Below are positions 22,017-34,525 of a DNA stretch of 64,000 nt, piece by piece. The notes beneath the pieces are model-generated. The model had not been told where the DNA came from, did no database searches, and worked only from the letters and a program-made list of their open reading frames with translations. Source of the DNA: Lachnospiraceae bacterium (GTDB lineage: Bacteria > Bacillota > Clostridia > Lachnospirales > Lachnospiraceae); assembly GCA_015057025.1 (NCBI GenBank), contig SVFD01000005.1, positions 1-64,000 on the forward strand, written 5' to 3'. Both the position numbers and the translations under genes were made by a program. Positions within the stretch are counted from its first letter, which is position 1; every line of letters begins with the position of its first letter.

Positions 22017-22104
22017 CGGAGAAAGAGGGATTTGAACCCTCGCGCCGGTTGCCCGACCTACACCCTTAGCAGGGGCGCCTCTTCAGCCTCTTGAGTATTT
22101 CTCC
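22017..22104 (-). tRNA. tRNA-Ser (anticodon GCT)
   Basis: The minus strand gives an 88-nt class II tRNA: acceptor stem GGAGAAA/TTTCTCC, anticodon GCT in CTGCTAAG, a long variable arm, and GGTTCAAATCC in the T arm. The discriminator is G and CCA is not encoded. It decodes AGC and AGU. Confidence 0.97.
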
Positions 22105-31039: not shown

Positions 31040-32116
31040 TTAATACATATAGGGCAAAATATCCTGTTTCTCAGGTGCAACGTCGTCCTTTGAATATTCC
31101 CATTGTTCTATGGTAAAAAATTGTCCGGAATCAGAATCCGTGCTGACTCCCATAGACGGAACAATTTCTTCCCAACTAATCTCATGACCGTCCGTTAACA
31201 TTATAGTAAATACCACATCTTCATATTCCCATACCAAAGTATAGGAATCTACAGCCAATTTATCTTCATCTGTAACATCATATAAACTAAGTGTGCTGTC
31301 TAAATATGCTTTTGCCAACTCTTCTTTTCTGGCATAATCGAATAAATTATTAGACATAATTACTTTAGAAGGTGTACCTAATACATTATCAACCATATAT
31401 GTCATAAAATTAATTAAATATCCATCATCGCTTAAATCTTCATTATTCGGATTTGCAACTGCTTTCATTTCATCGTAATCATATCCGAACTGACCGTAAT
31501 AACTGCTCCATACAGAATAAGAATACCATTTATTTTCAAAGCTTTGTCCAATTGTAATATCCTCTTCCGAGTTATTATATAAAACGATTTTACCAACCTG
31601 GTTATCGTTATTGGACGCCTCTACAGAACTGTTATTGTAATACCAAAACGATTCTTTACCCTTGGCCGGAATTACATAAGTACTTGCTAAAATAGCCTCT
31701 TTATTCAACTTTTCCCATTCATCGGTTTCGTCGTTATGAACTCTTAAATATAGCTGTGATTCAAACGCATCTATTGTTAAGGGTAAATCTAAAACATGAT
31801 ATTGATCCTCAGCGCGATCTTCATATTTCGCATCAAAATCCGTTAAAGGCTTTTTAGCCGGTTCACCGGAAAAATCCCTGGCAGTTAACCATCTTTGAGG
31901 ATTGGAGTATGCCAAATGTCTTCCGTTTTCATCATAATTAGCGGAATCATCCGTCATTTCTGCATTTGCATCCACATCTGCTCCTGATTCATTATTGATG
32001 GATGCCTCTTGACCTGTAGAACCTGTTGAAGACGAAGTATCACTACCTCCTGCGCAAGCTACAATTGATAACATCATAGCTGAAACTATAAACATTGCTA
32101 ACATTTTTTTCTTCAT
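31040..32116 (-). CDS. putative lipoprotein, unknown function
   Basis: The 358-residue protein has a lipoprotein signal with lipobox IVAC (Cys about 21), then a Ser/Thr/Gly linker and an acidic, Trp/Tyr-rich extracytoplasmic domain. I find no family motif. GGAGGT precedes the start. It is followed by a terminator and preceded by the structured element at 32253-32396, so it is probably monocistronic. Confidence 0.7.
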   Translation of the reverse strand: MKKKMLAMFIVSAMMLSIVACAGGSDTSSSTGSTGQEASINNESGADVDANAEMTDDSANYDENGRHLAYSNPQRWLTARDFSGEPAKKPLTDFDAKYEDRAEDQYHVLDLPLTIDAFESQLYLRVHNDETDEWEKLNKEAILASTYVIPAKGKESFWYYNNSSVEASNNDNQVGKIVLYNNSEEDITIGQSFENKWYSYSVWSSYYGQFGYDYDEMKAVANPNNEDLSDDGYLINFMTYMVDNVLGTPSKVIMSNNLFDYARKEELAKAYLDSTLSLYDVTDEDKLAVDSYTLVWEYEDVVFTIMLTDGHEISWEEIVPSMGVSTDSDSGQFFTIEQWEYSKDDVAPEKQDILPYMY

Positions 32117-32252
32117 AATTTACCTCCATGAAAAATATTTACCTGTATGATAACATAAAGAAAATACCTTTCAACGACAATGCGACAGACGGCTTACTTT
32201 CTGTGACAAGCGGCAAATTTTAACAACAAATCTCCGGAATATATAACAAAGC

Positions 32253-32396
32253 AGGTCCGTAATATAATATATTTCATTCGACGGGTGTTTGTCTTCGTCG
32301 GCATTTGGATTGCGTTCTTTGCAATCCTACGTGCCGTTACGTTAAGACAACCAAGCGGAAGTGTCCCAAAGAATGTATATATTATATTACAGACCT
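32253..32396 (-). other. 144-nt rod-like inverted-repeat element (candidate structured RNA or MITE)
   Basis: The outer 20-nt arms 32253-32272 and 32377-32396 are complementary; the single difference is a G-U pair only if the minus strand is transcribed. Inside, nested on the minus strand, are CATTC/GAATG, GGG/CCC, TTGTCTT/AAGACAA, CGGCA/TGCCG and GGATTGC/GCAATCC closing a 7-nt loop. No reading frame or other feature explains it. It lies after the ksgA stop. It is either a structured RNA or a small palindromic mobile element. Confidence 0.65.
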
Positions 32397-32416
32397 ACGT
32401 CCTCTTTTTAATCCTT

Positions 32417-33274
32417 TTATTTTAATAAATCACTTAGAGTTGCAAATTCCTCCAAGGTAAAGGTTTCGCCCCTCACGCTCTCAGACTTGCCCATCTTACC
32501 CAAGGCTTCCAAAACCGCTTCTTTAGATATATTTAAGTCTGCCGCATGTGTCAGACCGTTCACCAGTGTTTTACGGCGCTGCTGGAAAGATGCTCTGATA
32601 ATACGGAACATAAATGCTTCATCCTTGACGCTTACAGGCGGATTGCCATAGACTTTCAAGCGGATGACCGCACTTGCCACATTGGGCTTAGGGATAAAAC
32701 AATTAGGCGAGACAACCGTCACAACTTCTGCCTTACAGTAATATGCCACCGCAAGAGACAAGGCACCGTAATCCTTAGTGCCGGGACCCACCTGCATACG
32801 CTCCGCCACTTCTTTTTGTACCATAATGGTAATGCTGTCTAAGGGCACGTGACTTTCAAGCAGTCCCATTACAATAGGTGTAGTAATATAATATGGAAGA
32901 TTTGCCACCACCTTAATGGGACGGTTATTATTATGCTCTTTTACAAGCTTTGCAATATCTACTTTTAAGACGTCCTCATTGATGACGGTTACGTTATCAT
33001 ATTCAGATAAGGTATCCGCCAATATAGGTATCAAAGCTTTATCAATTTCTACCGCAATAACCTCTCTTGCACGTTCTGCCAGATACTGGGTCATGGTTCC
33101 GATACCGGGACCAATCTCCAAAACACAGTCGTCCTTGGTAATCTCTGCACTATCTATAATTTTTTCCAAAATATGGGTATCGATCAAAAAGTTTTGTCCA
33201 AACTTCTTTTGAAAATGAAACCCGTGTTTATTCAGTACCGCGGCCGTATTGCCGGGATTTCCTAAATATGCCAT
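32417..33274 (-). CDS. rsmA: 16S rRNA dimethyladenosine transferase
   Basis: The 285-residue SAM-dependent enzyme (KsgA) dimethylates two adenines near the 3' end of 16S rRNA during small-subunit assembly. It has FQKKFGQNFLID, the SAM motif LEIGPGIGTMTQYL, NEDVLK and the catalytic NLPYYITTP. I chose ATG 33274 (AAAGGA upstream); a longer frame to 33418 adds residues without family support. The gene lies 166 bp downstream of tatD, a common neighbour in Firmicutes. Confidence 0.96.
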   Translation of the reverse strand: MAYLGNPGNTAAVLNKHGFHFQKKFGQNFLIDTHILEKIIDSAEITKDDCVLEIGPGIGTMTQYLAERAREVIAVEIDKALIPILADTLSEYDNVTVINEDVLKVDIAKLVKEHNNNRPIKVVANLPYYITTPIVMGLLESHVPLDSITIMVQKEVAERMQVGPGTKDYGALSLAVAYYCKAEVVTVVSPNCFIPKPNVASAVIRLKVYGNPPVSVKDEAFMFRIIRASFQQRRKTLVNGLTHAADLNISKEAVLEALGKMGKSESVRGETFTLEEFATLSDLLK

Positions 33275-33439
33275 ATATTTTCCTTTCGTTATAAATTCGG
33301 ATTGACATATAATATTTACTCTATGAAACAAATTTATCTTGGCTATATGCGACGGAATTGTCACAATACAGCCTTTTGATATTTTAGTTTGCAGGTAAAT
33401 CCTTTTTAATAAGATCATTTTAAATATAATGCGTTGATG

Positions 33440-34207
33440 TTACTTGGTAAGAAATAATTTCTTCGCATTCTCATAAGTTATACGCTCTACTTCTTCAGCA
33501 CTCACACCCTTAATCTCAGCTATCTTTTCCACCACGTAAGGCAGATATAGCGAGGAATTACGTTTTCCGCGGTAGGGCACCGGGGTTAAATACGGGCAGT
33601 CCGTTTCCAGCAAAATATGCTCCAGCGGAATTTCTTCCACAACTTCTACAAGCTTCTTGGCATTTTTATAAGTGCAGACACCGCCAACACCGATATAAAA
33701 ACCCATCTTTACAACTTCTTTGGCAACTTCCGGAGAATATGAGAAGCAATGCATAACGCCTCTGTAATTGCCTTGGTCATGTTCGTGAAGAATATCCATT
33801 GTATCTTTGGCCGCCTCTCTGGAATGAATAATTATGGGCAAATCAACTTCTCTTGCAAGCTGAATCTGCCTTTTAAACCATTTCTTCTGGATTTCTCTCT
33901 CCGGCTCGTCCCAGTAATAATCTAACCCTATTTCACCTATGGCTACCACCTTTTCATCTGCTGCCAGCTCTTTTAAACGATCCATATCCGCCTCTGTTAA
34001 AGGCAAGGTGTCCGAGGGGTGCACACCAACCGCCGCATAAATAAAAGGATATTTCTTCGCCAACGCATAGGTACTTTCTGTAGATTCCATGCTGGCTCCC
34101 ACATTGATGACGTACTCTATTCTGTTTTCCTGCAAGCTCCCAATCAGACTCTCTCTATCCTCATCAAAAGCATCATCATCGAAATGTGCATGACTTTCAA
34201 ATATCAT
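33440..34207 (-). CDS. tatD: TatD-family metal-dependent hydrolase (DNase)
   Basis: The 255-residue barrel protein has the family motifs: ESHAHFDD at the start (metal ligands), IGEIGLDYYWD, PIIIHSREA, VMHCFSYS and LLETDCPYLTPVPYRGKRN. Members are 3'-5' exonucleases or D-aminoacyl-tRNA deacylase-like enzymes. I chose ATG 34207, 6 nt after GAGGAG; the longer frame begins with a Lys-rich stretch that does not belong to the family. It lies upstream of rsmA in the usual order. Confidence 0.93.
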   Translation of the reverse strand: MIFESHAHFDDDAFDEDRESLIGSLQENRIEYVINVGASMESTESTYALAKKYPFIYAAVGVHPSDTLPLTEADMDRLKELAADEKVVAIGEIGLDYYWDEPEREIQKKWFKRQIQLAREVDLPIIIHSREAAKDTMDILHEHDQGNYRGVMHCFSYSPEVAKEVVKMGFYIGVGGVCTYKNAKKLVEVVEEIPLEHILLETDCPYLTPVPYRGKRNSSLYLPYVVEKIAEIKGVSAEEVERITYENAKKLFLTK

Positions 34208-34452: not shown

Positions 34453-34525
34453 GCGCGATTAGCTCAGTTGGTAGAGCACCTGACTCTTAATCAGGGTGTC
34501 CAGGGTTCGAGCCCCTGATCGCGCA
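34453..34525 (+). tRNA. tRNA-Lys (anticodon CTT)
   Basis: The 73-nt cloverleaf has acceptor stem GCGCGAT/ATCGCGC, the D arm AGCTCAGTTGGTAGAGC, the anticodon stem CCTGA/TCAGG with loop CTCTTAA (anticodon CTT), and GGTTCGAGCCC in the T arm. The discriminator is A and CCA is not encoded. It decodes AAG. Confidence 0.97.

Follow-up and report, generated by a model that had tools for sequence, protein, structure and literature searches.

A 144-nt rod-like structured element follows ksgA in the window analyzed here (the whole stretch of 64,000 nt from a Lachnospiraceae bacterium). Is it a new non-coding RNA (ncRNA) or a palindromic mobile element? Both possibilities were raised by a first-pass annotation of the sequence. 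Signs of both were found, and the element was neither a single ncRNA nor a classic MITE. We assign a probability of roughly 0.6, the proposed mechanism included, to the reading that the rod is one member of a non-autonomous repeat family of the BOX/ERIC kind, which is dispersed in Lachnospiraceae genomes, forms hairpins and carries a putative RNA core between site-specific arms.

Structure and surroundings of the rod

The rod is located at positions 32253-32396. Its predicted minimum free energy (MFE) was -58.4 kcal/mol on the plus strand (z -7.55) and -58.9 kcal/mol on the minus strand (z -8.84), and on either strand none of 200 shuffles was as stable. The fold and its complementarity define a left arm (32253-32272, plus strand) with site-specific sequence and a right arm (32377-32396, plus strand), which together form the outer inverted repeat of 20 bp and are 95% complementary. 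The 144-nt rod with a 20-bp outer stem was therefore borne out. A chance hairpin was ruled out by the fold z-scores on both strands and by covariation above that of shuffles.

Between the arms lies a conserved core of about 97 nt (32277-32373), defined by alignment and covariation, whose RNA strand was placed on plus by its wobbles. Its apical hairpin (helix 5; 32307-32327, plus strand) consists of GGATTGCG, a loop of 5 and TGCAATCC, and 99.5% of its cells were paired among the copies. A GNRA-capped mini-hairpin, GC-GGAA-GT with a two-bp stem, is located at a three-way junction (helix 6; 32355-32362, plus strand). The rod fold containing a 14-nt asymmetric strand was thus retained, but that strand is not plain, since it contains this conserved mini-hairpin.

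The borders were read by eye and carry no strand assignment. The left border is AAAGC (32248-32252), and the related AAAAACAGC or ACAG(C) was seen by eye at this position in about 10 of the first 25 copies. The right border is ACGTCC (32397-32402), and several other copies displayed GCGTCC or CGTCC there, again judged by eye. A short run of five T on the plus strand, read from the sequence at 32405-32409, begins 8 nt beyond the 20-bp stem, contrary to the earlier statement that there was no T-run. The gene ksgA (32417-33274, minus strand), whose name was taken from the earlier annotation and whose start codon is a choice made within a longer ORF, has its 3' end towards the right side of the rod. 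The other neighbour is a gene at 31040-32116 on the minus strand with its start codon towards the rod. No ORF of at least 60 aa overlapped the rod in the ORF list, in agreement with the claim that it has no reading frame; spurious ORFs cross some other copies.

Over the whole window, Rfam at the gathering cut-off identified only a 3'-cut 16S rRNA fragment at the window's edge (1-317) and two tRNA genes (22017-22104 and 34453-34525). For the rod itself the best sub-threshold match was rliE on the minus strand (25.6 of 90 bits), which did not appear in eight other loci. A known RNA family was rejected because no Rfam 15 family reached its gathering cut-off. The suggested lack of similarity to known features was upheld in this respect, and a match to a known Rfam family, which had been named as an outcome that would refute the proposal, was not obtained. 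Judged from its absence in Rfam 15 and from a limited literature search, the repeat is apparently uncatalogued; the candidates in a study of structured RNAs of human microbiomes (PMC8040213) could include the core-bearing repeat.

Copy number and distribution

With a 171-nt region as the query, blastn detected eight further places in the own genome (E 8.8e-22 to 0.0087). A covariance model was then built from an alignment of 25 copies (A1). It matched 40 places in the own genome (G000; weakest E 5.8e-4) and 46, 35 and 16 places in the compared relatives G001, G006 and G020, respectively. Matches at E 0.01 or better were present in 27 of the 31 genomes of the genus. In a sample of the order, for which up to 10 candidates per genome were scored under stricter filters, 28 of 295 genomes (own included) had a match; all belonged to one family and were distributed over 13 of 130 genera. 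An exact degenerate pattern retrieved 79 stretches in named species genomes. The titles of 76 of these were Lachnospiraceae, Clostridia or Clostridiales, and the other three were Mogibacterium, Acetatifactor and 'bacterium'. Lachnospiraceae bacterium G41 and NC2004 were among the genomes retrieved.

The plasmid and phage collections gave no match by distant blastn, and viral contigs gave no exact match to the degenerate pattern; divergent relatives could escape both searches. A phage or plasmid element was rejected on the lack of a match in the plasmid, phage and viral-contig searches.

After removal of two matches cut off at the locus end (L029 and L013), 105 of 107 matches were analyzed as copies. 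In a MAG labelled Mogibacterium (L271:114-632), three full matches were arranged in tandem, 23-34 nt apart, with part of a further unit at the contig end. Contig L234 of MC2017, which has a core match, also contains a Clostridiales-1 RNA (RF01699, 128.5 bits) at L234:1494-1651.

Conservation and RNA strand of the core

RNAalifold predicted 45 pairs, and 34 of them were changed on both sides in some copy. The inner stems therefore covary, and inner stems devoid of compensatory changes, the other outcome that the first-pass annotation had named as refuting, were not what the family displayed. Paired cells amounted to 92.3% vs 75.7% in shuffles (0/500 as high) and 35-46% in slid controls. There were 222 doubly changed cells vs 78.6 in shuffles, none of the 500 shuffles being as high. 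One measure of covariation gave a weak signal: further pair types numbered 69 vs 64, with 31 of 500 shuffles as high.

Three observations bear on the strand. First, G.T cells outnumbered A.C cells by 51 to 11 over all pairs and by 41 to 3 within the core, and this wobble bias places the RNA on the plus strand. Second, the MFE was lower on the plus strand in 92 of the 105 copies, with a mean difference of 6.2 kcal/mol. Third, the junction mini-hairpin was capped by GAAA, GGAA, GAGA or GGGA in all 25 rows of A1, and its two stem pairs covary. A script requiring G at loop position 1 and A at position 4 found the cap in all but four of the 105 copies, and the 101 loops all had a purine at position 3; three of the four exceptions were shortened copies and one had the loop on a mismatched stem. 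An RNA from the minus strand had been proposed from one change in the outer stem, which is G-U on that strand only. The description is correct for that single pair, but the wobbles of the whole family point to plus, and a minus-strand RNA was rejected on the GNRA cap, the wobble bias and the stability together.

These comparisons show that the core encodes a structured RNA, as predicted from its sequence, on the plus strand of the window, whose fold combines a long, irregular stem with a three-way junction and the GNRA-capped mini-hairpin. Core identity between G000 and G001 was 94.7%, compared with 81.6% for ksgA. Such conservation speaks for a function of the core in its own right, which would most simply be recognition by a protein.

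Uncoupling of arms and core

The arms of different sites were often unrelated in sequence, yet self-complementary. A core identity of 90% or more was shared by 36 pairs of copies. Mean arm identity was below 0.6 in 12 of these, six of which had cores of 93-97% identity; the null for arm identity had a mean of 0.525 and a 95th percentile of 0.655. The remaining 24 pairs were not under the 0.6 limit; among them are orthologues and recent duplicates with arms in common. L017 was 96-97% identical to L022 and L012 in the core, with arm identities of 0.41-0.55. Further clear cases were L184 and L185 from one genome (cores 94%) and L205 and L183 (cores 94%). The core borders TTC and GAA are the points where near-identical cores cease to match. 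In the class A alignments, the match ended near TTC at the left border and near GAA at the right one; class B had a like end point. L146 and L147 share both arms and borders.

Similar cores are thus found between unrelated arms, and the arms represent an inverted repeat peculiar to each site that, by the predicted pairing, stays complementary despite sequence change. This uncoupling may have come about by core transfer, gene conversion or very fast change of the arms. At one site shared by three species (L193:2084-2227, L156:4064-4207 and L177:959-1102), arms and core were largely kept; this copy is a candidate for one with a local function.

Substitutions in arms and core

Base pairs kept in both species were compared at orthologous sites of G000, G001, G006 and G020, using the first-listed pair at each of 22 loci. 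Two-sided transitions, two-sided transversions and one-sided changes numbered 27, 37 and 5 in the arms and 44, 10 and 24 in the cores, respectively. The contrast was supported for the transversion share (Fisher 1.4e-5) and the one-sided share (3.4e-4), and a locus bootstrap gave 0/5000 for both, although it depends on MFE pairing and pairwise alignment and weakened to p 0.0015 and 0.017 once the three strongest loci were removed. An earlier, after-the-fact choice of one pair per locus, with one locus omitted, gave the same picture. At the window copy, 3 of the 20 arm pairs were replaced on both sides in the G001 orthologue.

Core pairs, with mostly transitions and with one-sided steps, evolve like pairs of a selected RNA. 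In the arms, both members of a pair changed together, in many cases by transversion, as if one arm had been copied from the other as DNA. We infer that such copying may have occurred, as in quasipalindrome-associated template switching, in which a single event extends the identity between imperfect arms (PMC7202029, PMC3820800). The likeness is suggested by the arm substitutions; what is described there is a mutational process in E. coli and yeast and not the upkeep of a repeat family. Selection for pairing alone, combined with fast change, could also account for the arms. A caveat to arm copying is the LysM site, where the arms of G001 pair poorly.

Presence and absence of copies

The gene names ackA, lysC, dnaJ, uppP, S4, LysM and spoVG were assigned by eye from protein sequence and are presumed here. 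At the spoVG-like site, G000 and G006 have 30 nt and 3 nt between the aligned flanks, and G001 has about 300 bp more. The G001 insert consists of a core and 89-nt arms of 71% identity beside an intact native terminator, and an 8-nt direct repeat was observed there. For G020, whose right flank cannot be aligned at this site, no core was present within the 350 nt viewed. The element at the L161 site is present in three relatives but missing from G000, and in G001 a 12-nt sequence recurs on either side (L171/L161). The apical part was lost with the stem retained at L151, L168 and L170 of G000 and at the S4-like site of G020. In G006 the lysC-like site is occupied by a plain hairpin that is flanked by A and T runs and has a related stem base. 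Copies thus appear to come and go, and the stem can apparently outlast the core. After ksgA and ackA, an outgroup comparison gave no result because the flanks of more distant species do not align.

Many copies had been expected to mean a MITE, and a single conserved one an ncRNA. The 40 matches in the own genome agree with the former and the compensatory changes in the structure with the latter, but terminal inverted repeats are generally not common to the copies. A classic MITE, for which a resident insertion sequence would supply a transposase that recognises such repeats, would account for short, non-coding, palindromic, multi-copy elements with variable presence, for the direct repeats of 12 nt and 8 nt at two insertion sites and for the arms and borders that some copies share (L146/L147). 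However, besides the unshared terminal repeats, the direct repeats are unequal in length and could be due to chance, and the search for a partner covered Y1 transposases only. We consider this origin very unlikely.

Position relative to genes

Mechanically called ORFs were available on both sides of 102 copies. Among these, 34 copies were located between convergent genes, 34 were antisense to both neighbours, 29 were sense to both and five were between divergent genes. In 68 of the 102 the 3' end of a gene was on the right, with the edge of that gene at a median distance of 28 nt. The copies lie at the 3' ends of genes. Twelve pairs of adjacent copies were less than 700 nt apart; two of them are from the L271 array, and the other ten were back-to-back with their 5' ends inward. 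Such close pairs were found in L091, L146, L185, L196, L213, L217, L221, L237, L257 and L262, with L185 and L196 being orthologues. Short lipoprotein-like proteins with similar N-termini were encoded beside or between copies in G000 (L147:4418-5236, L150:4361-5167, L150:13702-14433 and L160:3307-4035). Three of the four genes were located between back-to-back copies, and none of the four proteins matched a Pfam family above its cut-off.

An upstream promoter with a preferred position was not found (8.36 vs 8.14 in shuffles, sd 0.06), and the opposite strand scored 8.47; small RNA (sRNA) genes with a fixed promoter were rejected on these two results. For the 34 copies with both neighbours on the other strand, a plus-strand RNA would need its own promoter. 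More generally, the copies might be a family of trans-acting sRNA genes, independently transcribed regulatory RNAs spread by gene duplication. The RNA-type covariation of the core with its plus-strand signature, the conservation of the core above that of the adjoining ksgA and the tandem array of L271 would fit such genes. The absence of a promoter at a preferred place does not, nor do about 40 copies per genome with locus-specific arms, presence that varies between close species and apical deletions that spare the stem at three G000 sites. We consider an sRNA gene family unlikely.

T-run tails were mildly enriched (25 and 17 of 92 copies vs 12 and 6 for the opposite base), and for this reason a general role as terminator is not established. 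The location of the copies and the survival of their stems nevertheless suggest a use as a 3'-end hairpin for the neighbouring genes. A stricter version holds that the element belongs to the host, as a non-mobile bidirectional terminator or stabiliser with a gene-specific stem, to which the core was added in the terminator loop. This agrees with the position at gene 3' ends and with the stems retained without a core (lysC-like site of G006, S4-like site of G020, L168 and L170). It conflicts with the spoVG-like site, where the entire palindrome is located next to a native terminator that is still intact, with the mildness of the T-run enrichment and with near-identical cores between unrelated arms, and we regard it as unlikely. 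The idea that every insertion enters the loop of a pre-existing terminator was also rejected: it fits the lysC-like site and is contradicted by the spoVG-like site.

Comparison with known repeats

The dispersed repeat that we favour resembles the BOX/ERIC kind in having many dispersed intergenic copies without a long frame and a secondary structure common to the copies. The likeness to BOX, RUP, ERIC and Bcr1 is one of description; the sequence search covered Rfam 15 only. BOX, RUP and SPRITE of Streptococcus pneumoniae are likewise small, interspersed and non-coding, have an extensive RNA structure by prediction and are thought to affect co-transcribed genes; one of them, apparently SPRITE, is reported as enriched near the 3' ends of convergent genes (PMC3049150). 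Those families are defined by repeat modules and ends, whereas the Lachnospiraceae repeat has a shared centre and ends that are often site-specific. ERIC, YPAL and Bcr1 are described as multi-copy stem-loop families of roughly 70-200 bp, and the Lachnospiraceae repeat is likewise multi-copy and folds as a stem-loop; the word Lachnospir is absent from the text that describes them (PMC2267715). The features given for MITEs in PMC3049150, namely short, non-coding, base-paired and multi-copy, are also displayed by the repeat, but its inverted repeats are generally not common to copies and it has no known partner IS.

REP/RAYT elements share with the repeat the character of dispersed extragenic palindromes, but the tabulated REPs are short with conserved sequence, unlike the Lachnospiraceae repeat (PMC2817692). 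Y1 transposases (PF01797) were absent from G000 and G006, with one match in G001, the third genome searched. Reverse transcriptases (PF00078) were absent from G000, G001 and G006, and G020 gave one match under the cut-off. A mobilising protein of these two families was thus not found in G000 and G006. Some copies have a GGAC-like border on the minus strand, a feature linked to REP elements. On the protein searches, REP/RAYT elements and retroelements (group II intron, retron or DGR) were both rejected, and a REP/RAYT-type or reverse-transcribed element is largely refuted and hardly credible.

Proposed mechanism and significance

For the BOX/ERIC-like repeat, we propose that one arm serves as the template for the other when the hairpin DNA is replicated or repaired, which would be the likeliest cause of the arm substitution types. 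Where transcribed, the element may form a large hairpin at the 3' end and so impede transcription or exonucleases. A trans-acting protein, for which no candidate was found, might recognise the core and keep or spread the repeat.

A bolder extension would make the repeat a new class of mobile element. Such an element would inherit its RNA-structured core alone, while each insertion would generate new terminal inverted repeats by fold-back copying, which self-templating would then keep palindromic. A second copy is located just upstream of ksgA (window 33275-33440) in G001 and G006, while G000 has right-arm sequence only. In G000 the left flank is joined to this right-arm sequence, and in G006 an inverted copy of the right arm together with the core lies between the left flank and the right-arm sequence. 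This is the arrangement predicted by fold-back copying, although G000 may equally well have lost the copy. The 89-nt arms of G001 at the spoVG-like site match at 71% over nearly their whole length, as those of a decayed fold-back would. We consider such a new class unlikely on present evidence.

If the repeat is correctly read as BOX/ERIC-like, tens of RNA-bearing copies per genome would be carried by a family of bacteria common in the gut and rumen. Arms and core would maintain their pairing by different routes, so that the repeat would be a natural system in which to test hairpin self-templating at the DNA level against selection at the RNA level. A protein that binds the conserved core with its GNRA junction is predicted and could be isolated directly.
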